Source: Bacteroidales bacterium (GTDB taxonomy: Bacteria; Bacteroidota; Bacteroidia; Bacteroidales; F082). From it: a stretch of DNA of 46,837 nt. Both the position numbers and the translations under genes were made by a program. Of this stretch, positions 26,108 to 46,835 are shown piece by piece. Positions within the stretch are counted from its first letter, which is position 1. Each line of letters opens with the position of its first letter. Where the stretch lies: the NCBI GenBank assembly GCA_015493215.1, contig WGDP01000041.1, positions 1 to 46,837 on the forward strand, written 5' to 3'. The notes beneath the pieces are model-generated. The model had not been told where the DNA came from and made no database searches. It saw nothing but the letters and a program-made list of their open reading frames with translations.

Positions 26108-29100
26108 TTATTGTTTAATAATTTTTCCTGAAGCAACTCCGTTTTCAGAAGTAATTTTATACAAATAAAGTCCTCTTGCGAGAGAAGCTGTGTTTATTCT
26201 GAATCCTTCGCTGCTAAAAGACAACATCTTTTGTAAAACTTTAATACCCTGCAAATTATAAAGTTCAAATTCAGCTCTCGAAGCTTTGTTAATTTGGGGT
26301 TTAACAATCAGGTAATCGGTTGAGGGGTTTGGGTAAACCGTAAATGAGTTATTGGCTTCGGCAAGTTCGTCAACGCCGGTGGTGGTTCGGTAAAACTCAA
26401 TTACTTCGCGAAACAGCTCTTCGGTATTGGCACGGGTATCGATGCGGGCTGTTTCAACGGTAAATGTCATCACACTTCCGGTATTGACCCAGGTGTCAAT
26501 TCCTGTAAAGTAGTTTGAAAAAACATAGTCGGAAGGCCCCATACTGTAAATGGTGTGAACTCCCGGTGCAGGTTGCAGGGCATCGGCATACCACAAGGTG
26601 GCATAAACCCATTGCACAGGAGTAAGGGTACAGATACCGTTGTTGGGAACAGCATCCATTTCCGACAGTCCCAGTCCGCCATCATCGGCATACGACTGTG
26701 CGTGATACTCTTCGATACCCATATAATCGTATATAAATTGTCCGGGAGTGAATGTGTCGGGAGCTTCGCCAACAATGTCATACAAAAAGTCAAGTCCCTG
26801 AACCCACACATGGCCGCCGTTGTTAACAAAATTGATTAACGGTGCGTTGAATTTAAAATCGGTGCTGTCGCTAACATCCCAAAGCTTAAGATCCACTCCG
26901 TCGTTACCGGTGTACCAAATCACCATATTGTAGTTTTCAAGCAGCGCTGTATCGGGATAGGTTCCGGTTACATCGGTATTGTAAACATCATAGGTGTAGC
27001 CGAGGTTCATCAAAACAGTGTCCAGCTCCAGATATCTGTCGGCACCGTAGTTGTTATCGTTAACCAGCAAAATGGTGAAATCGGTTCCGGCACCCTGATT
27101 TGAAATGGTAATCATGGTTGAATCGGAGACTCCCGAACCATCGTTGGCAGTAGCTTTCACCCAAACGGTTCCGTTGCCGGCAGGTGTTCCGGTGGCTTGC
27201 AGTAATCCGTCAGCGGTAATGGTGGCAGTGGCAGTTCCGTCAATCACACTCCAGGTTACACTGTTATCGGGAGCATACATGGGGAATACGTCGGCTTCCA
27301 TTTGTAAGGCTCCTCCGTCTTCGGTGATGGTGGAATCGCCGTTTTCGCTGTAAACATAAATGCTGTCAACGTAAATATCGTTGTACAGATAGTATTCAAA
27401 ATAGGAGAGTCCCTGACTGATTAATGTGTCGGTATTATCTTGTGTGTCGATGCGGGCAGTTTCAACGGCAAAGTTCATTACGATTCCCTTTTTAGTAGCT
27501 GTCCCGTCATATTTGTAAATACCAGAATAATAGTCACTAAACACATACGAGTCGGGACCCATCATGTAGCTTCCGCGGGCTTCATCGGTTTTTGCCAATG
27601 CATCGGCGTACCAAAGTTCGGAATAGGTCCAAAGTACGGGACTTAACCCGAAAATGCCATTGTTCACCACCGTATCCATTTCGGGCAAACCGGCACCACC
27701 GTCATCGGCATGCGATTGTGCGTGATATTCGGCAATACCCATGTAATCGTAAATAAATTGTCCGGCCTGAAAGGTTGTTGGTGTATTTGCAATATCATAC
27801 AGGTAATCCAATCCCTGCACCCAGACAATGCCACCGTTATCAACATATTGTTTTAGGGGTGCATTAAACTGAATGTTTGTCGAATCGGAAGTATCCCACA
27901 AAAATAAATCAACGCCATCGTTTCCGGTGTACCAAATTACGGCCGACGCACGTGCCAATGTAGCTGAATCGGGATAGGTTCCGGTGCTTACAGTGTTAAA
28001 AACCGTATAGCTGTAACCCAGGTTGATAAGTGATGTTTCGATAACCTGATAACGGGTTGGGTCGTTGTCGTTATCGTTTACCAGCAGTACTTCAAAGCTG
28101 TTTCCGCCCCCCTGATTGGTAATAATTACCATCATGGAGTCGGCCACTCCCGAGCCGTCAACGGCGGTGGCTTTTGCCCAAACGGTACCGTTTCCGGAGG
28201 GTGTTCCGGTGGCCTGTAACAAGCCGTTACTGCTAATGGTGGCGGTAGTGGTGCCGTCAACCACACTCCAGTCAACATCGTTGTCGGGTGCAAACAACGG
28301 AAAAACATCAGCTTCCATTTGAAGGGTTCCGCCGTTTACATTGATAATGTTGTTTCCGCTTTCGCTGTAAACATTGATGCTGTCAACAAAAATGTTGTTG
28401 TTTAAGTAGTACTCAAAGTAGGTAAGTCCCTGATTGATTAATGTATCGGTATTATCCTGCGTATCAATGCGGGCGGTTTCAACGGCAAAGTTCATTACAA
28501 TACCCTGTTTTGCAGCCGGGCCGGCATAATTGTACAAGCCACAATAATAGTCGCTAAAGGTATAACTGTCAGGCCCCATCAGATAGCTTCCCCGTGCTTC
28601 GTCGGTTTTTGCCAGGGCATCGGCATACCAAAGTTCGGAATAGGTCCAAAAAACAGGATTTAAACTGAAAATACCATTGTTGGCAACGGTATCCATTTCA
28701 GTTAGTCCGGCACCGCCATCATCGGCATGCGACTGGGCATGATATTCGGCAATACCCATGTAATCGTAAACAAACTGCCCGATGGTAAATGAGTCGGGGG
28801 CAAGGCCATATACATCATACATATAATCTAACCCTTGCAGCCAAACTATTCCGCCATCATCAATGTACTGTTTTAAGGGTGCATTAAAAGCAAAGTTTGA
28901 AGAGTCGGAAACATCCCACAAATACAAATCGGCACCATCGTTACCGGTGTACCAAATTACCACCGAGTAGTCGGCAAGTGTGGTCGAATCCGGGTAGTTG
29001 TTGGTGGTAACGGTATTGTAAACATCGTAATTATATCCCAAATCGATTAACGATGTTTCTATTTTTTGATATCTCGTGGTACCGTTGTTGTTATCGTTAA

Positions 29101-31207
29101 CCAACAATACATGAAAATCAGTAGCAGTTCCCTGATTTGAAATTGTAATCAGGAGTGAGTCGGCCACGCCCGAACCATCCACGGCAGTGGCTTTTGCCCA
29201 TACCGTTCCGTTTCCGGCCGGAGTTCCGGTGGCTTGTAGTAATCCGTCGGCAGTGATAGTGGCGGTGGCGGTTCCATCAACCACACTCCAGGTTACGCCA
29301 TTTTCGGGTGCATACAACGGTAAAACATCGGCATGCATCTGAAGGGTTCCTCCGTCGGATGTGATGGTGGTAACACCGTTTTCGCCGGAAACGGTTATGC
29401 TGCTTACCAGTACATCGTTGTTGGCATAGTAGTTAAAATAGGAGAGGCCCTGATTGATAAGTGTATCGGTATTGTCCTGTGTGTCGAGCCGGGCTGTTTC
29501 CACGGTAAATGTCATTATGATTCCCTTTTTCGAAGCGGTTCCCACATAGTTGTACAGTCCGCAATAATAATTGCTAAACATGTAACTGTCAGGCCCCATG
29601 TGATAAACCGTGCGTGCATCATCGGTTTTTGCCAGCGCATCGGCATACCAAAGTTGCGAGTAGGTCCAAATTACCGGGTTTAAAGTAAAAATGCCATTGT
29701 TAAAAGTGGTATCCATTTCATCAAGTCCTGTCCCACTGTCGTCGGCATGCGATTGTGCATGGTATTCGGCAATACCCATGTAATCGTAAATAAACTGCCC
29801 TGCTGACATGGTATCGGGTGCAGAACCGTAGATGTCATATAAAAAGTCCAGTCCCTGAAGCCAGACGATTCCGCCATTGTCAACATATTGTTTTAAAGGC
29901 GCATTAAAGCTAAAATCGGAAGAGTCGGAAACGTCCCATAATTTAAGATTTGTTCCATCGTTTCCGGTGTACCAGATTACCGTTTGGTAATTGGATAACC
30001 GTGTTGAGTCGGGAAAGGTATCGGTGGCAATGGTGTTATACACATCGAAGGTGTAGCCGAGATTTTCGAGCGATGTTTCTATTTTTTGGTAGCGGGATGC
30101 ATCGTTGTTGTTATCGTTTACCAGCAAAACATAGTAGTTGGAAGTTGTTCCCTGATTGGAGATGGTAATTTCAACCGAGTCGGCAACGCCCGATCCGTCA
30201 ACAGCCTGTGCTTTCACCCAAACGGTTCCGTTTCCGGCGGGAGTGCCGGTGGCATACAACATTCCCGAATCGCTAATGGTGGCAGTAGCTGTTCCGTTGA
30301 TAACACTCCATGTAACCGATTGGTTTGTTGCATTGGCAGGCTGTATATCGGCGTGCATTTGCAGCGAATCGCCATCAACGGTAATGGTAGTGGCGTTGCC
30401 ATCGCCGTAAACCGAAATGGAAGTTACTAAAATGGTTGGATTGGTAAACTGCTCGAAATAGGTTAACCCTTCACCAAAATAGGTATCGGTGTTAGCCTGA
30501 GTATCAATTTTTGCTGTTTCGGTAGCAATGGTAAGTACTTTGCCGGTTCCTTTTTCGAGGTAAACGCTGTTATAGTAGCTGTCGAACACATATCCGGCAG
30601 GTCCCATGCGATAAATTGAATCGGCATCGGGTGACGGAACCAGTGCATCGGCATACCACATGGTTGACCAAACCCATTCCATGGGCGTAAAAGTAAAAAT
30701 AGGATTTCCGGGTACCACGTCAAGTTGCGAAACACCGGTGGCTCCATCGTCGGAATGCGATTGCGCATGATACTCCTGAATGCCAAGGTAATCATAAACA
30801 AAATCGCCGGCGCTAAAGGTGTCGGGTGCCTGGCCGTAACGATCGTATAAGAAGTCGAGACCCTGGAGCCAAAACATGCCGCCATTGTCGATATAATCTT
30901 TAATGTCCTGATTGTCGCTGTCGGTACCATTCCAAAAGTAAAGTCCCACGCCATCGTTTCCGGTGTACCAGATAACCAAATCAAAATTACTCATATACGA
31001 ATAACTCGGGCTGCCCCCCTGTGCAGAAGGATCGTAATCGGTGTAATTATATCCGTTGTCGGTGAGTGCGGTTTGAATAACCGAAATTCGTGATGGTGTA
31101 TAATTATTGTCATTTACCAATAATATGGACATCTGCCCGTAACTAAAGGCGGTGCCAAACAATAAAAACCCCAACATCAATGCAAAAGACCGTAACTGTT
31201 TTTTCAT
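26108..31207 (-). CDS. Giant secreted T9SS protein with five tandem GATase-like units alternating with four Ig-like (BIg2-like) domains
   Basis: Signal peptide [24 protein letters not shown]; five LLVNDN...VIWYTGNDG...[16 protein letters not shown]...AQSHADDG...ETARIDT units; four [35 protein letters not shown]...GNGTVWVKA linkers; C-term [14 protein letters not shown]...[21 protein letters not shown]. Confidence 0.85.
27050..31130 (-). repeat. Four-to-five tandem coding repeats, period about 1.02 kb
   Basis: Reverse-complement LLVNDN motif recurs near 27055, 28075, 29095, 30110 and 31110; matching DNA such as 'ccggtgtaccaaattac' and 'catgtaatcgtaaataaa' recurs once per unit. Confidence 0.8.
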
Positions 31208-32105: not shown

Positions 32106-32136
32106 TTTGATTGTAGGTTAAATATGACTAAGTTTG
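32106..32136 (+). promoter_or_regulatory. Putative Bacteroidota-type promoter for the cas operon
   Basis: TTTG (32106-32109), 19 nt, TAAGTTTG (32129-32136), matching the TTTG/N19-21/TAnnTTTG consensus, 40 nt before cas6. Confidence 0.55.
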
Positions 32137-32175: not shown

Positions 32176-32895
32176 ATGAGGATAAAAGTTAATTTAGAGT
32201 TAAATACTGACTGGCTTACAAAAGATTACAGGGTAATATTTATGTCATTTTTAAAAAAAATATTGGAATCGTATGATAACACTATTTTAACAAACCTTTA
32301 CGGCACAAAAGAAGAACCGAGAAAAATTAACAAACCATTTACTTTTCATGTCAAGTTTCCTGAATTTAAAAAGTTTGAAGGAAATAAAATTATTTGCGGA
32401 GAAAAGGCTGTTTTTTATTTCTCGACAAATGAGGAAATATTAGCAACAAGCTTTTATAACAGTCTTAAAGAATCTAAGCATTTCACCATAGGGGAAAATT
32501 CATTTATTGAATTTAAGGTTAAAAATATTTGGATAAAACCTTTAAAAATTTTTTCAGAAGAAAAAAGTGTTTTTAAAACTTTGGCTCCAGTGCTTGTTAA
32601 TAAAAAAGGAGACAATCTACATTACCTATCGCCTGTGGACAAAGATTTTTACCAGTCTTTTCTTGATATTATCTTGTTACAGGCAAAAGCCTTTAATATT
32701 GATATAGCTCCTAAAGATATTGAAATTGAGATATATAAAATGAAAAAACTCCCGTTAACCCATTATCGTCAAACCATGACAGCCTGGTTAGGTGAGTTTA
32801 TTTTAAAAGCTCCAAAAGAAGTTTTACAATTGGTTTATGATACAGGCATTGGGGTGAGGCGTTCACAGGGTTTTGGAATGCTGGAAAAAATATAA
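32176..32895 (+). CDS. cas6: CRISPR-associated endoribonuclease Cas6
   Basis: MRIKVNLEL N-terminus; C-terminal Gly-rich loop DTGIGVRRSQGFGMLEKI; first gene of the cas operon. Confidence 0.92.
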   Translation: MRIKVNLELNTDWLTKDYRVIFMSFLKKILESYDNTILTNLYGTKEEPRKINKPFTFHVKFPEFKKFEGNKIICGEKAVFYFSTNEEILATSFYNSLKESKHFTIGENSFIEFKVKNIWIKPLKIFSEEKSVFKTLAPVLVNKKGDNLHYLSPVDKDFYQSFLDIILLQAKAFNIDIAPKDIEIEIYKMKKLPLTHYRQTMTAWLGEFILKAPKEVLQLVYDTGIGVRRSQGFGMLEKI

Positions 32896-32899
32896 CGAA

Positions 32900-34087
32900 A
32901 TGGAACAAAAACAACATATAGAACAATTACAATTGGATTTCAGTAACAATTCTGATACTGACAATGGTTATATTGAATTATTTCCGGGAAATTGGTTGTA
33001 TAATGCTGGTGTAATTGGGTTTATTTATGTTTTAGAAAAATGTGGAATAGAAAATATAGATGAATTATTAATAATTGACGGTTCTTTTGCTGGAAATATT
33101 CAAGTATGTTTAAATCGAAAAGTTGAACATAAAAATACAAAGATTCCTAAATTAATCTGGAAATGGCTTGAATTAAGTCGAAGAGAATTAAAAAAAGATG
33201 TTGAAAAAATTGAAGATCCGGTTCATGAGATTTGGGGCACATTATTTAATGTTTATTACAGAGGATTCTTTAACGCAAATACTAAAGATTTATATCAAAA
33301 ATCTAAAAGTTCAGACTCACTATTAAATCAATTATTAGGTTTTTTTTCAGGTTTTAATAAATATGATGAAAATGCACTTACATGTTCATTTTGTAATAGG
33401 AAAAATATATCAAATTATAAAAATACTTTTTCGAACGAGCATTTTAGTGGACTTGGTGGTAGCGGAGGTGATAGGGGTATGCCAAATTCTTTTTGGAATA
33501 ATGACAAAAATTTAGGAACTCATATTTGTGATACTTGTAGTTTTATATTACTTCAAAAGCACTTTGCATTTGCTAATGTTTCAGGTAACACAAAAGTATT
33601 TATCAATGCCCCTTCATTTAAATTGATGTATCAACTTAACCGAATCGTTAATGAAGTTTATATTAACAACTTAAATAATAGAGCATTATTAGCAACATCA
33701 ATAATTGAATTAGCCTCAAATACTAATCTGCTATTTAGTCAATGGACGTCAATGAATATTGAAATAATTGAGGTTAAAGATAAAGTCAGGTTTTTTTCTT
33801 TGCCTTATTCAACCATTAAACTAATTTCTAATAGAAAAATCGCAGAACTGTTAAGCAATATTGGTGAATTTTCAGTTTTAAATGCTATTTTAGAAAAAAA
33901 CTACAACAAAATATCGGATATCGGATATAAATTATTAAAAGTTGGGACAAAAGATATAACGAACAAAAGTGATAATGATTTAGTAAATAGCCTTTTGTAT
34001 CAAAAACGGAATAAAGAAAATATACTTCTTACAGCAAATAAATTGTTTAATTTATATGCATTAATACAGGATCGAATTAAAAAATAA
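32900..34087 (+). CDS. cas8b: Type I-B Cas8 large subunit, Cst1-like CxxC-CxxC protein
   Basis: Zinc-binding pairs CSFCNRKN...HICDTCSF and position between cas6 and cas7. Listed start 32873 overlaps cas6; ATG at 32900 (MEQKQHIEQ) preferred. Confidence 0.82.
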   Translation: MEQKQHIEQLQLDFSNNSDTDNGYIELFPGNWLYNAGVIGFIYVLEKCGIENIDELLIIDGSFAGNIQVCLNRKVEHKNTKIPKLIWKWLELSRRELKKDVEKIEDPVHEIWGTLFNVYYRGFFNANTKDLYQKSKSSDSLLNQLLGFFSGFNKYDENALTCSFCNRKNISNYKNTFSNEHFSGLGGSGGDRGMPNSFWNNDKNLGTHICDTCSFILLQKHFAFANVSGNTKVFINAPSFKLMYQLNRIVNEVYINNLNNRALLATSIIELASNTNLLFSQWTSMNIEIIEVKDKVRFFSLPYSTIKLISNRKIAELLSNIGEFSVLNAILEKNYNKISDIGYKLLKVGTKDITNKSDNDLVNSLLYQKRNKENILLTANKLFNLYALIQDRIKK

Positions 34088-34092
34088 GATTT

Positions 34093-34575
34093 ATGGAAGA
34101 AAATAATAAAAATCCGGTAAAACAATACATTGATGATTTAGAAAATAAAGTTAAATCGGGCGGAGCCACAGCAGAAGATTTTAAAAATGCTTTTGCCGAA
34201 TTGCAAAGAGCAAAATTAAAAATTCAACAGCTATTGGAATATAAAACTTTGGATAATAATGATATAAATAATAGTTATTATTCATTATACAAAAAGATAT
34301 CCGGTGAAAACTTCTCTGACTTGGTGGATAAATTGCATGAAATAGGTAGAAAAAATCCAAATAAAGGGTTAAAAGAAGCTTTTAAAAAGCAGAGTTATAG
34401 ACTATTAAGACAAATTAGAACCGGTAATCGTGATAAAGTTTTTTATGATTTTCTTCGAATATTTATTTCATCAGATGAAAAATTTGACAATGCTTTAGTA
34501 AGTGCATTCAAATATCCTGAGGATGAATCATTCAAAGTTTTAATCTATTCTTATTTAAGTGGAATAATTCAATAA
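34093..34575 (+). CDS. Small helical protein between cas8 and cas7; candidate separate small subunit / detached Cas8 C-terminal domain
   Basis: 160 aa, predicted mostly helical; QSYRLLRQIRTGNRDKVFYDFLRIFISSDEKFDNALVSAFKYPEDESFKVLIYSYLSGI resembles C-terminal helical regions of Cas8b-type proteins; 5-bp gap to cas8, 15 bp to cas7. Confidence 0.6.
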   Translation: MEENNKNPVKQYIDDLENKVKSGGATAEDFKNAFAELQRAKLKIQQLLEYKTLDNNDINNSYYSLYKKISGENFSDLVDKLHEIGRKNPNKGLKEAFKKQSYRLLRQIRTGNRDKVFYDFLRIFISSDEKFDNALVSAFKYPEDESFKVLIYSYLSGIIQ

Positions 34576-34590
34576 CAAAATAATCAAATT

Positions 34591-36069
34591 ATGGGAAACA
34601 GTAAAATGGCTGCGGAAAATGTAACTATAACCTTAATTTTTGATGGTTCCGCATTAAACAGAGACGAAAAGATTGGAGGCAATATACTTTCAATTAAGAA
34701 ATTAACCTTTAAAGATGAAGAAAGGCCTTTTATAAGTAAAAATGCCATCCGACACTATTTGTTTACCACACTTATGCAAGCATTTAATTGGGAAGAAACC
34801 CCAATTTTAAAACAAGGTGATGGGAATAAACAAACATTACAATTAGATTTAACAAAAAGTAATATATTAAATTCTAATGAATTAGCATTATTTGGTTATA
34901 TGTTTACTAAAGCAAATGAATCGGCATTAACAAGAAAATCTCCCTTAGGAATAACCAAGGCTATCGGTCTCTTTCCTTACAAACAAGATATGGCTTTTTA
35001 TGCTAATCATGATTTTGTAAACAGAGTGAATAAACAAGGCAAAAATGCTACACCGAATCCTTTAAATAAAGAAGAATATAACGGGTTATTCAAATTATCT
35101 TTTACAATTGATAAAAAAATGTTAGCACAGGATGTCTGGATTGTGGATGAATTTTCATATTCAGAAAACCAGTTAAAAGTAGAAATTGCAAAGCCTCAGA
35201 CTTTTGTAATTAGAAATGTTGAAAAGAAATATGATGATAATGATGAATTTATTGGCTACATCACAAAGGAAGAAGAAAACAGTCCAAGTGAATTTGAAAT
35301 CAAAATCAATGATTTTACAGTTGAGTTACCCAAAAACATGGTAAACATTAGCAAGAATGTATTATCAATAAAGCCTGTATTTGCTTTTGATAGAAAGAAA
35401 AATAATAAAGATAAATATACAACTAAATTCAGTTTTAAAGTTATAGAGTATGAAGAAAATGGAGAATCTGCAAAGGAAAAATCCTATTCATTTGAGTGTA
35501 CATACGAGCCTTTATATGATGAAAAGGGAAAAACACTTACTTTAAAATCCGGTCATGAATCAATAATTGATGGATTTAAGTGTGACAATTACAATAAACA
35601 AAATAAAGTTAACAAATTCACTAATAACAATAATGATGTAATTGAAATAACTTCGCTTGCCGATTCAAATTTTGAAAAAGGGCCTTTTGAATTAAGATTT
35701 AAATTATCTGAGAATAAGGCAAATAATATCATTAAAAACCTTTTGGATTCTATTCACAACGGCCTTACAGCTCATTCAAGCGGCGAGTTAAATACTATTG
35801 TGCCATTATTCTTAATTGCCGGTAAAGTTAAAGTGCCATCCCCGGTATTTCATTCCTATATTGATGTAAGGAGTAAAAATAACGGTACTTACGAAGTTTT
35901 TGGAATCAATGATGCTTTGAAAAACAGGTGGTTGGAAGATTCCGTTTATATATTCGATTCGGAAAGGTTAAAAAGACAACCCCTTCTTAATAAAGATAAA
36001 AACATTGAGGAAAATTGGGATAATTTCTTGAATTTTTTAAATAACAATGACGACAATAATAATTCTTAA
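34591..36069 (+). CDS. cas7: Type I-B Cas7 (Cst2/DevR family)
   Basis: NVTITLIFDGSALNRDEKIGGNILSIKKLTFKDEERPFISKNAIRHYLFTTL...; operon position. Confidence 0.88.
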   Translation: MGNSKMAAENVTITLIFDGSALNRDEKIGGNILSIKKLTFKDEERPFISKNAIRHYLFTTLMQAFNWEETPILKQGDGNKQTLQLDLTKSNILNSNELALFGYMFTKANESALTRKSPLGITKAIGLFPYKQDMAFYANHDFVNRVNKQGKNATPNPLNKEEYNGLFKLSFTIDKKMLAQDVWIVDEFSYSENQLKVEIAKPQTFVIRNVEKKYDDNDEFIGYITKEEENSPSEFEIKINDFTVELPKNMVNISKNVLSIKPVFAFDRKKNNKDKYTTKFSFKVIEYEENGESAKEKSYSFECTYEPLYDEKGKTLTLKSGHESIIDGFKCDNYNKQNKVNKFTNNNNDVIEITSLADSNFEKGPFELRFKLSENKANNIIKNLLDSIHNGLTAHSSGELNTIVPLFLIAGKVKVPSPVFHSYIDVRSKNNGTYEVFGINDALKNRWLEDSVYIFDSERLKRQPLLNKDKNIEENWDNFLNFLNNNDDNNNS

Positions 36070-36072
36070 AGT

Positions 36073-36273
36073 ATGAAAACAATAGTAATTACACCGGATA
36101 ACGAAAAGGAGTTCAACTTTTTAAATAAACTTCTTGAAAAATTAGGCTATTCTCACAAAATTATAAGTGAAGAAGAAAAAGAGGATATGGGTTTGTTACA
36201 ATTAATGCTTGAAGCACAAAACGATGACAACGTTGACGAAAAGGAAATACTAAATTTACTTGATGCATTATGA
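36073..36273 (+). CDS. Small RelB-like antitoxin
   Basis: 66-aa acidic protein (MKTIVITPDNEKEFNFLNKLLEKLGYSHKIISEEEKEDMGLLQLMLEAQ...); ATGA overlap with the following RelE-like ORF. Confidence 0.8.
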   Translation: MKTIVITPDNEKEFNFLNKLLEKLGYSHKIISEEEKEDMGLLQLMLEAQNDDNVDEKEILNLLDAL

Positions 36274-36536
36274 AAATTGTCTATAAAAAATCCTTTGAGA
36301 AAGATATTAAAAAAATCAAAAGCAAATTGATTCGTCAGGAAATAAAAGATACTTTGATGCAGATAAAACGAGCGGAAAATATTTATGAAATATCCGGTGT
36401 CAAAAAATTAAAAGGACATAAAAATGCATACAGAGTCAGGATTGGGGATTACAGAATGGGGTTCTTTTTTACGGGCAATACGGCTACAATTGTGCGGTTT
36501 GTTGATAGAAAAGATATTTATAAAAGATTTCCGTAA
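36270..36536 (+). CDS. RelE/ParE-superfamily toxin
   Basis: MKIVYKKSFEKDIKKIKSKLIRQEIKDTLMQIKRAENIYEISGVKKLKGHKNAYRVRIGDYRMGFFFTGNTATIVRFVDRKDIYKRFP, classical RelE core (YRVRIGDYRxGF...VDRKDIYKRFP). Confidence 0.92.
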   Translation: MKIVYKKSFEKDIKKIKSKLIRQEIKDTLMQIKRAENIYEISGVKKLKGHKNAYRVRIGDYRMGFFFTGNTATIVRFVDRKDIYKRFP

Positions 36537-37333
36537 TGAATAACAGAGTTTTACGTATTAAGATATATCAACCGGCAGCTCATTTTCGAATGCCTTTTAC
36601 CTACCAGCGAAGACATACTTATCCGCTACCACCCTATTCTACAGTGTTTGGAATGCTAATCAATCTTCTTGGTATAAACAACCAAAATAACGATTTATTC
36701 AAAAAAATTATAAAATGCAAGCTATCTGTTTCCGGAAGGTTTGAAACAAAACATACCGAGTATGTATGGTTTCGTAATTTAAGTAAAAAAAGTCATGAAA
36801 AATATTTCGGTAGTTTATCAATAAGAGAAAAAAACGGGCAAATTGAGCATATCGGTGGTCAAAGCCCTATTAAAATTGATGTGCTTGAAAATATGAGTGT
36901 TACTATCCACATTGCTTCATCAGACAAGCCATTTTTAAATTACTTATTCGAATATCTTCAAAATCCGCTTGATCGTCTTGAAGTAATCCATCTTGGAAGA
37001 GCTGAAGACTGGGTAGTTTTTGAAGACATTAGCTTTGTAGAATTACAAACAACAAGTGCCCATAAAAATTATGGACGTTTTTTCTGGATACCAAAAGATA
37101 TTTGGATTCAGAAAAATAACATAAATTTCGACTTTGGGACTATTGAGGGATTATTATACAATTTGCCGGTTTTTTCTACTATTAAAAATTACGAAAACAC
37201 TTTTAACAGAAACGGACAACGTGATTTCAAATACCTCAGGGTAAAATTAAATGATGGTGCGATACGTGGTTTTGATTACCTTTCCGATGATGAAGCACCG
37301 GTATTTTTTGCAGATATTCAAAAGTCCAAATAA
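36536..37333 (+). CDS. cas5: Type I-B Cas5
   Basis: LRIKIYQPAAHFRMPFTYQRRHTYPLPPYSTVFGMLINLLGI...; starts in a TAATG overlap with the toxin stop. Confidence 0.92.
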   Translation: MNNRVLRIKIYQPAAHFRMPFTYQRRHTYPLPPYSTVFGMLINLLGINNQNNDLFKKIIKCKLSVSGRFETKHTEYVWFRNLSKKSHEKYFGSLSIREKNGQIEHIGGQSPIKIDVLENMSVTIHIASSDKPFLNYLFEYLQNPLDRLEVIHLGRAEDWVVFEDISFVELQTTSAHKNYGRFFWIPKDIWIQKNNINFDFGTIEGLLYNLPVFSTIKNYENTFNRNGQRDFKYLRVKLNDGAIRGFDYLSDDEAPVFFADIQKSK

Positions 37334-37341
37334 AAACAATT

Positions 37342-39990
37342 ATGGAAATCTGGGGAAAAAGTAAAACCAACAAAGGTGATGTTATTACTCTTCAAGAGCA
37401 CATCAATGATGTATTACTGGTTTTGGAACATTATAAAATGAACATTAAAAGTGAAAATGTTTTCAGGCTTACGGAATTGGCTGTAAAATACCATGATTTG
37501 GGAAAAGTATTACCCTATTTTCAAATAAAAACATTGGGAAATAAAAACTATGAACCTTTTGATGTTTACGCAATTATTCCCCATTCCCTGCTTTCCGTAT
37601 TACTTATTAACGGAAACCATCTAAGTAAAGAAATAAACAAGATTGTTGGCGAAGACATAGGACTTGTTTATCAAAATATTGTTTTGTCAGCTATAGCTTA
37701 TCATCACTGGCGCGAAAGTTTTTACGATATTATTGAAGGGTTTAGCGATGTGTTCGAGAATTTTCTGGAACTAGTTAATAACATTTCCAAATGGAATAAA
37801 ATAATTTCAAATTTAAATGAGCTTGGAAAAAGTATAAAAGGAATTGATCCGGATTCTTTACAAATCAATTCGGATATTTTACTTGGACTTACAAACGGTA
37901 TAAAATTTTCCGATTATTTTACCCCGCCTTATCAATTATACCGTTTGCCCGACAGAGTAAAAATCAATCAAAAGAAACTAAACGACTGGGTGCTTATTAG
38001 TGGATTTACAATGCTTTCCGACCATTATGCTTCATTTGTCGAACAAGAATATAATGAATCAGAAAAAAAACAGTATCTAAAAATAACCTATAAAAAACCT
38101 GAAAGTTTTGATGTAGTTAAAAACAAGTTTATTAAAATCTTAAAAGACAAAACAGGGGAATTGATAGATGAAAAAAACATCTGGCAAATTAATAAAGTTG
38201 ATACTTTCCGGAATAATAATACAATTCTGTTAGCCCCTACCGGTATGGGGAAAACAGAATTTGCATTTTTATGGTCGGCCGGTAAAAAGTTTTTTTATAC
38301 CCTGCCTCTTCGTTCGGCTGTAAACCAAATTTACGATAGAACCAAAAACATTTTTGGAGCCGAAAACAGTGGAATACTACATTCTGATGCCGATATATAC
38401 ATCTATGGCGATGGCGGCGAATCGGAATCAATGAAAATTTACGATTTTTCACGGCAATTGACAATGGCTGCAAATATATCAACCGGCGATCAATTCTTTC
38501 CTTATGCTTTACGCCCCCCGGCTTATGAAAAAATATTTGCCAAATTTTCTTACTCCAACCTAATTATTGATGAGATTCAGGCTTATGATCCTAAAGCAGC
38601 CGCAATCGTTGTGAAGTTTACGGAACACATTGTCCAAATGGGAAGCAGGTTTTTATTAATGACAGCAACATTGCCTGACTTTATTAGAGATGAAATAAAT
38701 AAAAGAATAGGAATTGATAATATTAAAACTTTAGATCTTTTTGAAAGTGACCCAAATTTAAAAACATTTGAAAAACATAAGCTTAACATTCTTGTTGACA
38801 ATTTTACCGATAAAAAACTATCATACAATCAGGAAATTATCAATAAAATTACAGAAAAGGCCAAAGAAAATAGCGGACAAAGAGTATTGGTGGTTCTGAA
38901 TACTATTAAACAGGCACAACAGGTTTATGGTGATATTTTAAAAACAAAAGACAATACTTTAAATGTTAAGCTTTTTCATTCAAGATATTCTTTTGAACAT
39001 CGTAAAAAAATTGAGAATGAACTAATGGATTTTATGGGAAATACGCCGGAAAGCAGGAACGATAAAAAGCCTAAAATTCTAATAGCCACTCAGGTTGTGG
39101 AAGCTTCTCTCGATTTGGATGCAGATTACCTGTTCACCGAATTGGCACCATGGGATTCCTTAATTCAGCGTATGGGTAGAGTTCTAAGAGAGTTACGCCC
39201 AAATACTAAAAACATTGATAAAATAATAAAAATTAGATACAACACCGATAATCTTCCTGATAATGTGTTTGTTTTGATTTACGATGGAAAGAATAGCAAA
39301 GGGAAAACCATTTATGAATCAGGAGCAAATTATGTATATAGCAAAGATATTCTTAACAACGCATTATATCTTTTAGAAAGGCGCACCGGTGATGTGGAAA
39401 AAGAGAAGCTGCTTAAAACCTCTATAAATTATACTTTCAAGTCCTCAGGCGAATTTAAAAAGTATAAAAAGTCAGGTTTTTTGTTAAATGAAAATTTGAA
39501 AAATATCTTAGTAAGAAAAAATTATGAAGGGCTTGACAACGAAAGTAACTATTTGAAACGGTTTTATGATATGTTAGAAATATTGGATGCCGGTTTTATG
39601 TCTGAAAGAAAATCGGAGGCACAACATATTTTTAGGGAAATTAATAGTGTTGGGATTATTCCCGAATCCAGAAAAGATGAGTTTTTTAATGATATTAATA
39701 ATTTTGATTTTAACAAAAAGCACCCTTACACGCGTTTTAAAAAAGATATTATTTCTAAATTTGTAGTCAACGTTCAACGTTACAAAGTTGAAGAATTTCT
39801 TTACGATACAAATACCGTTGCAACGCAATTGTCCTTGAGCAGCGATTTCGTATCATTTAACGAAGAAGCTAAAGTAATGAAAAAACTGAAAAATTGGCTT
39901 TGGGGATATTATTTTGCAAACGTTGAATATTCTGAAAATAAAGGTTTGACAGGTATAATAAAAGAGGAATCAAACAATATGTTTCTGTAA
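37342..39990 (+). CDS. cas3: Cas3 with N-terminal HD nuclease and SF2 helicase
   Basis: HD motif KYHDLGKVLPYF; Walker A LLAPTGMGKTEFAF; DEIQAYDP; MTATLP; ATQVVEASLDLDADYLFTELAPWDSLIQRMGRVLR. Confidence 0.96.
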   Translation: MEIWGKSKTNKGDVITLQEHINDVLLVLEHYKMNIKSENVFRLTELAVKYHDLGKVLPYFQIKTLGNKNYEPFDVYAIIPHSLLSVLLINGNHLSKEINKIVGEDIGLVYQNIVLSAIAYHHWRESFYDIIEGFSDVFENFLELVNNISKWNKIISNLNELGKSIKGIDPDSLQINSDILLGLTNGIKFSDYFTPPYQLYRLPDRVKINQKKLNDWVLISGFTMLSDHYASFVEQEYNESEKKQYLKITYKKPESFDVVKNKFIKILKDKTGELIDEKNIWQINKVDTFRNNNTILLAPTGMGKTEFAFLWSAGKKFFYTLPLRSAVNQIYDRTKNIFGAENSGILHSDADIYIYGDGGESESMKIYDFSRQLTMAANISTGDQFFPYALRPPAYEKIFAKFSYSNLIIDEIQAYDPKAAAIVVKFTEHIVQMGSRFLLMTATLPDFIRDEINKRIGIDNIKTLDLFESDPNLKTFEKHKLNILVDNFTDKKLSYNQEIINKITEKAKENSGQRVLVVLNTIKQAQQVYGDILKTKDNTLNVKLFHSRYSFEHRKKIENELMDFMGNTPESRNDKKPKILIATQVVEASLDLDADYLFTELAPWDSLIQRMGRVLRELRPNTKNIDKIIKIRYNTDNLPDNVFVLIYDGKNSKGKTIYESGANYVYSKDILNNALYLLERRTGDVEKEKLLKTSINYTFKSSGEFKKYKKSGFLLNENLKNILVRKNYEGLDNESNYLKRFYDMLEILDAGFMSERKSEAQHIFREINSVGIIPESRKDEFFNDINNFDFNKKHPYTRFKKDIISKFVVNVQRYKVEEFLYDTNTVATQLSLSSDFVSFNEEAKVMKKLKNWLWGYYFANVEYSENKGLTGIIKEESNNMFL

Positions 39991-40481: not shown

Positions 40482-41246
40482 ATGAGAGATTTGCAATATA
40501 GATTTTTAGAAATGCTTGATGAATTCGGCTATGATATTTTTAATCTGAAAATGATTAAAGACACCGGATATTTTTCGGCCAAACGAATAAGCTATGCTTT
40601 AAAATCTTTAACAAAATCAGGAATGCTAATAAAAATCGAACAAGGGAAATATGTCAGAAGCAATTTTAACAATGAATTTGTAATAGGTAATTTTTTAGCT
40701 CCTGATGGTGGAATCGGTTATTGGTCTGCATTAAATTCCTATGGTTTAACCGAACAATTTCCGAATGTAATATTTATCCAGACATCAAAAAGAAAAGGCG
40801 AAATAGTTTTTAGAAACCTGCGCTACAAATTTGTCAAGGTTGCTCCCCGTAAACTAAAGGGTTATAAAAAAATTGGAATTGGCAACCACAGTTACAGGAT
40901 GAGTGATTTGGAAAAGACCATTGTTGATTGCTTTGATTTGCCTCAACATGCCGGCTGGTATCACGAAACAATCAAAGCATTTAATAATGCCAAGCTGAAT
41001 CCCAACAAATTAATCAGGTATTGCAAAATAATCAATAATACATCTGCTACCAAACGTATGGGATATTTAAGTGAATTATTAGGAAAAAAGGAAATGGCAT
41101 CATTTATACAATATGCACAAAGTGCAATAAAGCAATCTTATTCGCTATTTGAAATCAGTGGAGAAACCGATGGGCAATATGACAACAGATGGAAGTTGGT
41201 TATAAATATGCCTATTGAGGAAATTATTGAAATTGCAAATTCATGA
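40482..41246 (+). CDS. AbiEi-type (type IV TA) antitoxin / transcriptional regulator
   Basis: N-terminal winged-helix region (FNLKMIKDTGYFSAKRISYALKSLTKSGMLIKIEQGKYVRSN) then GGIGYWSALNSYGLTEQFPNVIFIQTSKRKGEIVFRNLRYKFVKV...MSDLEKTIVDCFDLPQHAGWYHETIKAF, typical AbiEi layout. Confidence 0.85.
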   Translation: MRDLQYRFLEMLDEFGYDIFNLKMIKDTGYFSAKRISYALKSLTKSGMLIKIEQGKYVRSNFNNEFVIGNFLAPDGGIGYWSALNSYGLTEQFPNVIFIQTSKRKGEIVFRNLRYKFVKVAPRKLKGYKKIGIGNHSYRMSDLEKTIVDCFDLPQHAGWYHETIKAFNNAKLNPNKLIRYCKIINNTSATKRMGYLSELLGKKEMASFIQYAQSAIKQSYSLFEISGETDGQYDNRWKLVINMPIEEIIEIANS

Positions 41247-41400: not shown

Positions 41401-42411
41401 ATGGAAGAAATCACCAACAAAAACACAAAAGCACAAATTCTTGAAGCGTATGAAAAGCTTCTGAAACAGGTAAAAGAGGCCAAAGCCGAAAAACCGAAAC
41501 AGGTGCAACAGGAAAAACAGGAACGGGAAACCGTTAAAAAAGTTGAAAAGGTTACTGATAAAGCCATTGTTGACGAAATAGGAAACCTAAAAACCAATCT
41601 TGCCAAAAGTCTTGATAAAGTTGAGGATTCGCTGTTGGCTGAGTTTGAAAAGCTTAAAGAGCTAAAGGAGGCCATTGAAGTGGAAAAGAAAAACCTGAAA
41701 GAACTTTATGATCTGTCGGTTACCACCGATTCGCTAGCGGCCATGCTACTGGCACAAAAAGAACAGAAGGAAGCTTTTGAAAAAGAAATGAAAGAGCAGA
41801 AAGAAGTATTCGAACAGGAAATGGCCGATAAACATACACAATGGAAATTGGAAAAAGAGCGGCTGGAACGCGAAGAAAAAGAGTATCAGGAAGAGCTAAA
41901 GAAAAAGCGCAAGCGCGAAGAGGAAGAATACCAATATGCCTTAAAAATAACCCGTCAGAAAGAGGCCGATGCCTATGCCGCCAAAAAAGCAAAATTGGAA
42001 ACTGAATTGGAAGAAAAGCGTGCCGCCTTTGAAAAAGAGATTGCCGAAAGAGAAGCCAATGTTTCCAAAGCCGAAAAAGAGTTGGCCGAATTGAGGGCAA
42101 AAGCCGAAAACTTTCCAAAAGAACTGGAAAAAGCCGTTGCCGACAAAGAAAAAGAGATTACAAAGCAACTTGCTTCCAAATTTGAATTTGAAAGCAAACT
42201 GGCCGAAAAACAAAACGAGGGTGAGCTGCGACTAAAAGGGCAAACCATTGAAGCTTTAAAAGAGAAAATTGCCGAAATGCAAAAACAAATCAAAGAGCTG
42301 AGCGAAAAAGCCAACCTCGCTGAGAAAAATGTGAAAGATATAGCAGTAAAAGCCATCGAAAGCAGTTCTAAAATCCAGGTGTTTCCGGCTAAAGAAAACG
42401 ATAAGGAATAG
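41401..42411 (+). CDS. Long coiled-coil protein of unknown function
   Basis: 336 aa, extended heptad-like E/K/A/L-rich region (about residues 75-310), no enzymatic motif recognised. Confidence 0.8.
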   Translation: MEEITNKNTKAQILEAYEKLLKQVKEAKAEKPKQVQQEKQERETVKKVEKVTDKAIVDEIGNLKTNLAKSLDKVEDSLLAEFEKLKELKEAIEVEKKNLKELYDLSVTTDSLAAMLLAQKEQKEAFEKEMKEQKEVFEQEMADKHTQWKLEKERLEREEKEYQEELKKKRKREEEEYQYALKITRQKEADAYAAKKAKLETELEEKRAAFEKEIAEREANVSKAEKELAELRAKAENFPKELEKAVADKEKEITKQLASKFEFESKLAEKQNEGELRLKGQTIEALKEKIAEMQKQIKELSEKANLAEKNVKDIAVKAIESSSKIQVFPAKENDKE

Positions 42412-42456: not shown

Positions 42457-43476
42457 ATGCCTGCCAAACAACCCTTAAAACTTACCGAACTGCGTGCCCT
42501 GATAAAAAAGCACGACCGCAAAGACTTGGAATTTATTATTGCACAATTGTACAAGATGATTCCAAAAGATAAAAAAATTGATAATGATGTAGCCTCATTA
42601 ATTGAAAATCCGGAGAAGTTTGCGAATAGCTCCAAAACCTCAAAAAAAGGTAAAGCAATGCGGCCTTTCAGCGAAGTGGAAAAAGAAGTTTTGTTTTTTG
42701 AAGCCAATGCCTATGAACAAAACTATATGATACCAAACCGGAGTATTAAAAAAGCCGACAGGCCCAAATGGCGTTTTGTGGTTAAAAGGCTGTACAAAGA
42801 GCTGAATGAGTATGCCAAACAGGAAGACTACATCAAAAAAACTGCCGACAACCTGCTTAAACTATACGAAGTGCTTACCTATGCCTGCGGTTACTATCTG
42901 TTTAATGCTTACGATGCGTTTGAATCGGTGGGTATTGCACAAGAAACATTCTTTCAATCGGTTGTTGATAAATATAATAAAACACAGGAGAGAGAAGCAT
43001 TTATTTCAAAGTCTATTGATATCATGTTCGACAACTTTTTGAACCGTTACACCCTTTATTCAGATTTGATGTGGGTATTTTTGGAATATGTTCAAACACC
43101 TGATATGCTTTATCTTACCATTGATATTTCCCGGCAAAAACGACAAAAACTGGCAAAAAGTGAAAAAACGACAAAAGGCGACTATGAATATGAGGTAGAA
43201 AAAAAGCTTAATAATTACACCGAGTTGATTTTCAGGTGTTATGCCGGTCTGTATGAATTTGATAATGCCCTTAACGATTATCAAAAATATGCCATTGAAA
43301 GAGAGGAAGAGGTAAAGTTATATATTCTTATCAGCCTTTTATTCGATTATGAAAAGAAAGACTTGATTTTGAAACTTATTATTGAAAATGAGAAGAAAAT
43401 GGCACTAAGAGAACGCCTGATTAAACTGAAAAATTATATTTTGGAAAAAGATGAATTACCAAAGTATATGTATTAG
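42457..43476 (+). CDS. Uncharacterised 339-aa helical protein (N-terminus weakly reminiscent of DUF6155)
   Basis: MPAKQPLKLTELRALIKKHDRKDLEFIIAQLYKMIPKDKKID...; 45 bp after the coiled-coil gene and 11 bp before cas4. Confidence 0.75.
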   Translation: MPAKQPLKLTELRALIKKHDRKDLEFIIAQLYKMIPKDKKIDNDVASLIENPEKFANSSKTSKKGKAMRPFSEVEKEVLFFEANAYEQNYMIPNRSIKKADRPKWRFVVKRLYKELNEYAKQEDYIKKTADNLLKLYEVLTYACGYYLFNAYDAFESVGIAQETFFQSVVDKYNKTQEREAFISKSIDIMFDNFLNRYTLYSDLMWVFLEYVQTPDMLYLTIDISRQKRQKLAKSEKTTKGDYEYEVEKKLNNYTELIFRCYAGLYEFDNALNDYQKYAIEREEEVKLYILISLLFDYEKKDLILKLIIENEKKMALRERLIKLKNYILEKDELPKYMY

Positions 43477-43487
43477 TAACTGTACAA

Positions 43488-44006
43488 ATGCAAATAACCG
43501 GTACCCATATCAACTATTATTTTGTTTGCAAGCGCAAACTGTGGCTTTTTGCCAACAACATTCAAATGGAGCACACCAGCAGCCGGGTTTCAGAGGGTAA
43601 TCTTATTCATGAAACCACCTATCAGCAACGCACATCAAAATACGAAGAGGTTGCCATTGGTGGTATTAAAGTTGATTATTACGATGCAAAAAACAAAGTA
43701 ATTCACGAAGTTAAAAAGTCAAATAAAATTGAAACGGCTCACATTTGGCAGCTAAAATATTATCTGTTTGTTTTTGAAAAAGCCGGTATTGAAGGAGTAA
43801 CAGGCAAACTTGAATATCCCAAATTGCGTCAAACCGAGGAGGTGATTCTAAGCAATCGGGATGTTGAAGAACTGCAAGATGTTATAAACGAGATTAAAAA
43901 TATAATAACATCGGAAACATGCCCCGGAGTTCTTAACGCTACAATTTGCAAACGATGCAGCTATTATGACTTTTGCTTTAGCGGAGAAGCCGAACAGGAT
44001 GAATAA
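43488..44006 (+). CDS. cas4: CRISPR-associated exonuclease Cas4
   Basis: QITGTHINYYFVCKRKLWLFANNIQME...SRVSEGNLIHETTYQQR...; C-terminal Cys cluster CPGVLNATICKRCSYYDFC. Confidence 0.94.
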   Translation: MQITGTHINYYFVCKRKLWLFANNIQMEHTSSRVSEGNLIHETTYQQRTSKYEEVAIGGIKVDYYDAKNKVIHEVKKSNKIETAHIWQLKYYLFVFEKAGIEGVTGKLEYPKLRQTEEVILSNRDVEELQDVINEIKNIITSETCPGVLNATICKRCSYYDFCFSGEAEQDE

Positions 44007-44043
44007 ATTTAACAACTAAACACAGACTTTAAAATTAATAAGC

Positions 44044-45051
44044 ATGTCAAAAAAAACCTATTACCTGTTCAACCCCGGTCGCTTGTCACGCAAGGACAAT
44101 ACGCTTAAATTCACTCCTGTTGACCAAAATGGGATTGAAGGAAAGCCACGTTATCTGCCTGTTGAGCAAGTTGACCAGTTATACTGTTTTGGCACCATTG
44201 ATGCCAACTCGTCCATGTACAACTTTCTTGGAAAAAACGAAATTGCTGTCCATTTTTTCGACTACTACGAAAACTACACCGGATCGTTTTTATCAAAAGA
44301 TTACCTTTTATCGGGCAAAATGCTCATTAAACAATCGGCACATTACTCATCCCTTAAAAAGCGAATAAAAATTGCCAGAGCGTTTATCGAAGGAGCAAGT
44401 TACAACATTTTAAAAAACCTTAAATATTATCAAAACCGCGGCAAAGAACTTGAAAGCTATATTACTCAAATAGAAACTTATCGCAAAAGCATAAGCAGCA
44501 TTAACCGGATTGATAAATTAATGGGTATTGAAGGAAACATCCGGATGACCTATTACAAGGCTTTCGATATTATTTTGAACGGACTTAAAATGGAAGGGCG
44601 AAGCATGCAGCCTCCGCAAAACGAAGTAAATGCCCTTATTTCGTTTGGTAACATGATGTGTTATGCGCAGGTTTTAAGAAGCATACATCAAACGCAATTA
44701 AACCCTGTTATCAGTTTTTTACACAGCCCCGGCGAACGACGATATTCGCTGGCACTCGATTTATCCGAAATATTTAAACCCTTACTTGTTGACCGGGTAA
44801 TATTTAAAGTGCTAAACAAAAACATGCTTACTGCCAACGATTTTGATTCAAAAATCGGGCGTATAGTAATGAAAGAAAAGGGTAAGAAAAAATTTATTGA
44901 AACCTTTGAGCAGCGCCTTTCCGAAACCATTATGCACCGTACACTCGAAAGGAAAGTGAGTTATAAACATTTAATAAAGCTGGAAGCCTATAAGTTACAA
45001 AAGCACCTTTTGGATATAGAAGAATACAAGCCATTTAAAATGTGGTGGTAA
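44044..45051 (+). CDS. cas1: CRISPR integrase Cas1 (type I-B)
   Basis: [18 protein letters not shown]...[45 protein letters not shown]...; [43 protein letters not shown]. Confidence 0.97.
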
Positions 45052-45064
45052 AAGAGTAATAATT

Positions 45065-45328
45065 ATGTATGTAATATTGGTTTACGACATTGGCGAAAAG
45101 CGGGTAGGCAAAATGCTCAAATTGTGCCGAAAATATTTAAACTGGATTCAGAACTCGGTATTTGAAGGCGAGTTAACCGAAATTCAGCTAAAACGGCTTA
45201 AATTTGAAGCCTCTGAGATTATGAAAAAAGAAGAAGACAGTTTAATTATTTTTAAAACAAGGCAGGAAAAATGGCTTGAAAAAGAGGTGATTGGTGAAGA
45301 AAAAAACACGCTGGATCAATTTTTATAG
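45065..45328 (+). CDS. cas2: CRISPR-associated Cas2
   Basis: MYVILVYDIGEKRVGKMLKLCRKYLNWIQNSVFEGELTEIQLKRLK. Confidence 0.97.
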   Translation: MYVILVYDIGEKRVGKMLKLCRKYLNWIQNSVFEGELTEIQLKRLKFEASEIMKKEEDSLIIFKTRQEKWLEKEVIGEEKNTLDQFL

Positions 45329-45548: not shown

Positions 45549-46835
45549 CTATCAATCGCACCAAACCGGAATTGAAACAACATCAGGAAATAGTTATCAG
45601 TCATTTTGGCAATTCTATCAATCGCACCAAACCGGAATTGAAACTCCTAATAGCTTAATTGTTAGATTTTTCATAATCTTCTATCAATCGCACCAAACCG
45701 GAATTGAAACTCTGGTGTTGGATTTCTTTAATATCGGCACCGGCACTATCAATCGCACCAAACCGGAATTGAAACCCGTTAAGTACGATAAGTATTACAA
45801 CACCGTGCTGCCCTATCAATCGCACCAAACCGGAATTGAAACTTCCGGGTTTGTTAAATCTTCTATTACCTGAAACAGGCTATCAATCGCACCAAACCGG
45901 AATTGAAACTTAATAAATTAACCGGCGATTTCCCCGAATAATCGCACCTATCAATCGCACCAAACCGGAATTGAAACCTATTCATATTTGCTTTATTCAG
46001 CAAAATATCACGTTCCTATCAATCGCACCAAACCGGAATTGAAACTGAAGAAAGCCGACCTGGTAAAATTGCGTGACCAGCCTATCAATCGCACCAAACC
46101 GGAATTGAAACAACATTATCCGGCATAATTTTGTCAAGTTTTTTATACTATCAATCGCACCAAACCGGAATTGAAACAACATTGACTACATTGTTCGTAA
46201 TATGAATTCATTCTATCAATCGCACCAAACCGGAATTGAAACATCTGTCAAACCTGCACCAAATAATGTTTTTGTTTGCTATCAATCGCACCAAACCGGA
46301 ATTGAAACTATAATTTTAAAAACAAGCAAAAATAGTAAAATATGCTATCAATCGCACCAAACCGGAATTGAAACTATTGATGATGATGGATTAGGTATAT
46401 GAGTAGCAGAACTATCAATCGCACCAAACCGGAATTGAAACTATTTTGTCACTGCAAATTATTTCAGCATATCTAAACTATCAATCGCACCAAACCGGAA
46501 TTGAAACTGGTTGAAGATGAAAAAGGCAACATCGTTGGCAGCGCTATCAATCGCACCAAACCGGAATTGAAACTGTTGATGAAGTTTTTTTCATTCTGCG
46601 TTGCATGGCTATCAATCGCACCAAACCGGAATTGAAACCAATTAGAAATAAATGTATTTAACTTTTTTGTTATCCTATCAATCGCACCAAACCGGAATTG
46701 AAACTTGCAAAACATTAAGCATTGCGTATGCTTTGGGTACTATCAATCGCACCAAACCGGAATTGAAACCAATTAGAAATAAATGTATTTAACTTTTTTG
46801 TTATCCTATCAATCGCACCAAACCGGAATTGAAAC
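45549..46835 (+). CRISPR. Type I-B CRISPR array, at least 20 repeats / 19 spacers, truncated by the window end
   Basis: 30-bp repeat CTATCAATCGCACCAAACCGGAATTGAAAC repeated 20 times with no variant seen; spacers 35-38 bp. Confidence 0.99.

Follow-up and report, generated by a model that had tools for sequence, protein, structure and literature searches.

The locus described here raises the question of why a small toxin-antitoxin (TA) pair should lie inside a CRISPR-Cas operon, between two genes for subunits of Cascade, and whether such a pair guards the operon, is governed by it, or simply resides in it. The window, i.e., the whole stretch of DNA analysed, is the 46,837-nt contig WGDP01000041.1 of a Bacteroidales bacterium (assembly GCA_015493215.1). 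A reading of these letters made without database searches (the sequence-only reading) had proposed that a RelE-like TA module was translationally coupled to cas5 and might act as an addiction guard, or else be regulated by Cascade. Profile, structure and genome comparisons were used to evaluate these proposals, and the features under discussion are collected in Table 1.

The host operon and the embedded pair

Judged from its cas6, cas8b, cas11b, cas7 (Cst2/DevR), cas5b and cas3 genes, the host operon is of the Bacteroidota type I-B, and profile searches found the set complete in the window, in the order cas6-cas8b-cas11b-cas7-cas5b-cas3, followed by cas4-cas1-cas2 and a CRISPR array. The cas8b gene is listed from a TTG, and from the start context an ATG at 32900 is the likelier start. 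GC content is 0.30 in the cas6-cas3 block, 0.37 in cas4-cas1-cas2 and 0.43 over the initial 31 kb of the contig, a contrast suggestive of separate histories for the two modules (effector and adaptation) and of acquisition of the effector block.

Intergenic gaps from cas8 through cas3 range from -4 to +15 nt, and for the TA pair, lying between cas7 and cas5, the three junctions measure +3, -4 and -1 nt. The geometry given by the sequence-only reading proved correct in each particular: the antitoxin begins 3 nt after cas7 (cas7 end at 36069, antitoxin start at 36073), antitoxin and toxin share an ATGA at 36270-36273, and a TAATG at 36534-36538 joins the toxin stop to the cas5 start. Both TA reading frames are intact, and the pair is complete with intact ends. 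The ATGA (-4) overlap is, however, also present in 16 of 32 free-standing pairs examined, and since half of these have it, the overlap is a habit of the TA family rather than a product of the cas operon; by this comparison of sequences, the contacts specific to the locus are only the +3 and -1 junctions with the cas genes.

Table 1. Coordinates of the features discussed in the text (positions in the window)
Feature	Position	Strand	Evidence or remark
Gene for a 1699-aa protein	26108-31207	-	
Predicted operon promoter, TTTG-N19-TAAGTTTG	32106-32136	+	39 nt before cas6 start
cas6	32176-32895	+	TIGR01877, 113.7 bits (cut-off 58.7)
cas8b, Cst1-like, CXXC-CXXC	32873-34087	+	PADLOC Cas8b, E 2.5e-91
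cas11b, small subunit	34093-34575	+	PADLOC Cas11b, E 6.7e-39
cas7 (Cst2/DevR)	34591-36069	+	TIGR02585, 145 bits (cut-off 72.8)
Antitoxin, 66 aa, RelB-like	36073-36273	+	family of free-standing-pair antitoxins
Toxin, 88 aa, RelE fold, M. jannaschii RelE3 type	36270-36536	+	PF05016, 3bpq matches, AlphaFold model
cas5b	36536-37333	+	TIGR01895, 126.7 bits (cut-off 96.7)
cas3	37342-39990	+	TIGR01587, 238 bits; PADLOC Cas3b, E 7.5e-142
AbiEi-like antitoxin gene	40482-41246	+	PADLOC AbiEi, E 3.6e-79
Gene for a 336-aa protein	41401-42411	+	
Gene for a 339-aa protein	42457-43476	+	
cas4-cas1-cas2, adaptation genes	43488-45328	+	Pfam PF01930, PF01867, PF09827
CRISPR array, 20 repeats of 30 nt	45549-46835	+	reaches contig end

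The toxin and its antitoxin

That the toxin is RelE-like was confirmed by three lines of comparison, which place it in the RelE/ParE superfamily: Pfam PF05016 (29.2 bits, cut-off 23), a PDB sequence search in which the full-length toxin matched Methanocaldococcus jannaschii RelE3 (3bpq, E 7.8e-13), and an AlphaFold model (pLDDT 95) whose best match among solved folds is 3bpq_B (TM 0.80). The toxin family profile matched 3bpq_B with E 3.2e-21. The score against NCBIfam RelE_StbE was under that model's cut-off, and the PADLOC CARF_RelE model gave a weak profile match (E 0.006). An open frame of 88 codons arises by chance in 0.075% of composition-matched sequences, and this frequency, together with the 47 toxin-homologue loci examined from the genome surveys, makes a chance reading frame unlikely.

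Alignment with 34 homologues showed that K46, R55, R62, R80, Y84, F87 and P88 are kept, and that every column conserved in at least 70% of the homologues is kept or conservatively changed except positions 43 and 79. The residue at position 43 is Gly, the second commonest in that column. At position 79 the toxin has Asp, where 29 of the 34 homologues have His, two Lys, two Pro and one Asn; His79 belongs to the conserved C-terminal motif HRKDIY, the remainder of which is intact in the window toxin. By analogy with RelE, position 79 would lie near the active site, and the His79 to Asp change could reduce toxin activity, a point that touches on the degraded active site which the sequence-only reading had listed as unfavourable to it. 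As proof of a dead toxin the substitution was rejected, five other homologues also being without His. A phage origin of the toxin was likewise rejected, as a query of 50,697 phage records gave no match, and the closest plasmid-borne relative, with 54% identity across 77% of the toxin, is on a Chryseobacterium plasmid, where it lies near a recombinase and not near cas genes.

The 66-aa antitoxin had no match above the curated cut-offs of Pfam and NCBIfam. A protein of this type, 64-70 aa in length, lies upstream of most toxin homologues in the surrounding family and order, and the same antitoxin family stands beside this toxin in some 30 free-standing pairs; from its sequence and placement, the 66-aa protein reads plainly as the cognate antitoxin of this toxin family. 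Its low-confidence model (pLDDT 82.5, pTM 0.45) has a beta-alpha-beta arrangement and then two C-terminal helices, with no DNA-binding fold recognisable at that confidence, and a fold search with the model returned insignificant matches only. The antitoxin profile matched RelB3 of 3bpq weakly and not significantly (E 0.13).

The cas7-cas5 junction in relatives

Survey of related operons at this same junction had been suggested as a check, with conservation there taken to support function. Cas5 loci were sampled at the levels of family, order, class and phylum, with one further family added, and the TA pair was present at none of the 28 other readable Bacteroidota cas7-cas5 junctions. In 27 of these the two cas genes overlap or are separated by no more than about 12 nt, and in the remaining one by 86 nt; Cas5 is at least 44% identical to that of the window in 9 of the 28 surveyed loci. 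The nearest relative recovered was a Mariniphaga draft genome (Cas5 63% and Cas7 54% identical), where cas7 passes straight into cas5 through the same TAATG, without the pair. Because the junctions of the 28 relatives are empty, and the closest has TAATG between cas7 and cas5, the pair is an insertion, one that kept the coupling geometry. The proposal that it splits the Cascade genes is thus borne out, the pair having been inserted between cas7 and cas5, whereas the pair as a conserved accessory gene of type I-B operons was rejected, since it did not recur in the 28 junctions surveyed. Restriction of the insertion to one strain had been named in advance as a result that would speak against the guard proposal, and within the sample the arrangement does occur in one genome, with no conspecific among the genomes compared. 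Four other genomes of the genus contained no Cas5 relatives, and a Cas5 search of 174 family genomes gave one weak partial match besides the window. An apparent WYL-type regulator gene, recognised on reading the sequence, lies just before the Mariniphaga cas6 (L021:2210-3112) and is absent from the window.

An assembly error at the pair deserves mention here, as the genome is a draft of 355 contigs with 3.79% contamination and the contig might join unrelated sequences at that point. Such a join would have had to leave both small genes whole and yield a full cas5 with its TAATG overlap; furthermore, GC content is continuous across the pair and the toxin occurs once in this genome. A chimeric contig is accordingly given almost negligible weight.

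Relatives of the toxin, on the other hand, are common and scattered. They occur in 15 of 174 family genomes (the window's own included) and in 54 of 228 genomes of the order sample, with up to 6 copies per genome, and no cas genes were detectable near 47 free-standing toxin loci, in flanks of up to ~1.5 kb. This distribution, the single genome with the insertion and the Asp at position 79 all favour a neutral or selfish passenger that landed by chance where expression was unbroken and that has no effect on CRISPR maintenance. With a junction that is not conserved and a conserved motif altered at His79, the passenger is a serious rival and takes a substantial minority share of the probability. 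It accounts less readily for two intact reading frames with most of the active-site motif kept, and for preserved contacts of +3, -4 and -1 nt. GC content also bears on the point: the embedded pair, at 0.29-0.30, has the value of the cas6-cas3 block, which would fit long residence in the operon or arrival with it and suggests an insertion that is not very recent, but free-standing pairs are also GC-poor (mean 0.33). Even if the pair is a passenger only, it shows small modules entering a tightly coupled operon without breaking it.

Predicted promoter and apparently shared transcript

The Bacteroidota promoter consensus is TTTG/TAnnTTTG, of which the -7 box is far better conserved (PMC6847099, PMC9723704). 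An exact TAnnTTTG was found 8-40 nt upstream of the antitoxin start in 25 of the 32 free-standing pairs, where 1.04 of 32 would be expected in composition-matched sequence (nominal P about 1e-32, the related sequences not being fully independent), and a box with one mismatch was found in 6 of the remaining 7. No exact TAnnTTTG could be found within 200 nt of the embedded antitoxin; near the start, the closest approach to the box agrees at 4 of 6 positions. Across the 46.8-kb window, TTTG-N18-22-TAnnTTTG is matched in full at a single site, the one upstream of cas6; because 3.35 full matches are expected in the window by chance, it is the position of this match, and not the count, that is informative. 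A scan for sigma-70 promoters, the wrong type for Bacteroidota, was discarded as uninformative (65 matches against 53 expected).

From cas6 to cas3 the + strand showed no terminator-like sites, and this, together with absence of the promoter box of the free-standing relatives, is in keeping with an apparent transcript shared by the pair and the cas genes, as the sequence-only reading had supposed. The same sequence evidence contradicts a separate promoter uncoupled from the cas genes, which that reading had listed as an observation unfavourable to it. A promoter of its own is usual, if not strictly defining, for a type II TA pair. The simplest reading is that this pair was captured without its promoter, or has since lost it, and would be expressed from the cas6 promoter. 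With no box of its own and the only full promoter match placed before cas6, the pair appears dependent on cas transcription, although a non-consensus cryptic promoter may lie inside cas7.

Search for Cascade control of the pair

CreTA is a type VIII RNA toxin-antitoxin found in class 1 cas loci (PMC8501985, PMC12737573, PMC10097628; also PMC8730458), and control of a comparable kind can be envisaged here: in a CreTA- or CrePA-like arrangement, a crRNA-like RNA would guide Cascade to repress the TA pair, and loss of Cascade would free the toxin. The locus is of type I-B, as in the first CreTA, and the pair is positioned inside the cas operon. Nevertheless, no repeat within 3 mismatches was found outside the array in the window or the genome, the best matches in a scan for degenerate repeats were no better than those of shuffled repeats, the 8-nt ATTGAAAC handle was absent between 3.3 and 43.7 kb, and no spacer matched the TA or cas region above 67% identity. 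It should be noted that creA genes can be strongly degenerate and could escape such a search (PMC8501985). Neither an RNA toxin nor a Cascade-repressed toxin promoter was found, the toxin being protein-coding with no separate promoter to repress, nor was a crRNA-like antitoxin with repeat-like flanks, the antitoxin gene also coding for an ordinary protein. Nothing near the TA genes, whether resembling a repeat, a crRNA handle or a spacer target, thus supports the suggestion that Cascade might regulate the pair, and CreTA-like control, rejected on the repeat, shuffled-control, handle and spacer comparisons, is regarded as very improbable.

Proposed mechanism

In characterised RelBE pairs, the antitoxin is short-lived and the toxin is stable. 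The explanation favoured here, to which an even chance of being correct is assigned, is that a free-standing RelBE-type pair of the Bacteroidota was captured exactly at the type I-B cas7/cas5 junction, lost its own promoter, and now depends on the cas transcript in a form of passive addiction. On the evidence of sequence, transcription of the captured pair would start at the cas6 promoter, and its translation would proceed in tandem with that of cas7 and cas5. Given an antitoxin that is presumably short-lived and a toxin that is presumably stable, as in the characterised pairs, the supply of antitoxin would stop if the cas transcript were lost or silenced, and the toxin already made would be freed; this toxin, an RNase by homology, would slow or arrest the cell. 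The cell would then depend on continued cas6-cas7 transcription, i.e., on a passive, post-segregational addiction, and because the pair apparently is without its own promoter, the cell would probably have to keep its CRISPR genes on for the antidote. The trigger would be loss of the transcript rather than loss of Cascade activity, such that point mutations which kill Cascade and spare the transcript would release no toxin.

The pair has the apparent geometry of an addiction element, and an addiction role is physically plausible and, with promoter loss, better motivated. A "guard" role is inferred, against three observations: the junction is not conserved, neither a crRNA-like antitoxin nor a self-matching spacer was found, and His79 is changed to Asp. 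That the RelBE pair, stripped of its promoter and wired into the Cascade transcript, serves as a transcript-level guard punishing loss or silencing of the operon, and so as a protein counterpart of CreTA, is viewed as rather unlikely.

The same promoter-less architecture could also serve back-up abortive infection, in which transcription shut-off by a phage, or attack on the cas transcript, frees the toxin when CRISPR fails. Roles in phage defence are established for some type II TA pairs, and an orphan AbiEi-like defence gene is located downstream of cas3. Nothing in the sequence separates this possibility from addiction to the operon, however, and the toxin had no match among the phage records; abortive infection is considered improbable.

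Relation to known systems

The M. jannaschii RelB3-RelE3 pair (3bpq) and related archaeal and Bacteroidota RelBE pairs share with the window the toxin fold and full-length toxin sequence similarity, a small antitoxin gene upstream, and the ATGA overlap common in the family. The window pair differs in its location in a cas operon, in being without the usual promoter box and in the change at His79, and its antitoxin has weak similarity to RelB3. Protein TA pairs among cas genes have precedent in Sulfolobales, where a passage in one paper describes vapBC pairs interspersed in cas cassettes and suggests that they help to keep CRISPR-Cas in the population (PMC4390879). Those pairs are archaeal and VapBC rather than RelBE (one type III-D cassette contains four of them), and the passage describes neither promoter loss nor translational coupling at a Cascade gene junction (PMC4390879).

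CreTA resembles the present pair in lying in or beside cas operons, type I-B included, and in causing addiction to the CRISPR locus. In CreTA the toxin is an RNA and the antitoxin a crRNA-like RNA that works via Cascade, whereas both components here are proteins, and toxin release would here follow loss of the transcript and not of Cascade activity. In Clostridioides difficile, type I TA pairs adjoin CRISPR arrays and have been proposed to stabilise the region; these are likewise TA genes co-located with CRISPR elements, but with RNA antitoxins, and beside arrays (often in prophages) rather than inside a cas operon (PMC6079278). A RelE-family domain in a CRISPR context is also seen in CARF-RelE of type III systems (PADLOC CARF_RelE), while the toxin described here consists of RelE alone (88 aa), is paired with an antitoxin of its own, has no CARF sensor and belongs to a type I-B system.

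For archaea, published work already describes TA pairs within cas cassettes and suggests a maintenance role for them. Full-text searches of open-access papers turned up neither a RelBE pair at a cas7-cas5 junction nor promoter loss in a cas-embedded TA pair, and the new observation here is the promoter box in 25 of 32 free-standing pairs and in none of the sequence before the embedded one. If the pair works as proposed, capture of an ordinary TA pair without its promoter would make a cas operon addictive, with no crRNA-like RNA needed. The locus offers a clean test of addiction to a transcript versus addiction to Cascade activity, and retention or loss of the promoter in embedded versus free-standing pairs provides a simple sequence criterion for TA pairs in other defence operons.

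Other features of the window

Several neighbouring features were noted in the course of annotation. The AbiEi-like gene between cas3 and cas4 has no recognisable AbiEii toxin partner adjoining it, and a promoter-like TACTTTTG box lies 29 nt upstream. Between this gene and cas4 are encoded proteins of 336 and 339 aa without Pfam or PADLOC match, the former apparently a long coiled coil. In the array, spacers 17 and 19 are identical and the contig end is a repeat (46609-46835), reflecting either a real duplication or an assembly artefact. Upstream of the operon, on the opposite strand, the 1699-aa protein has five repeats of ~340 residues and a C-terminal sorting-like domain, and is probably a secreted surface protein.
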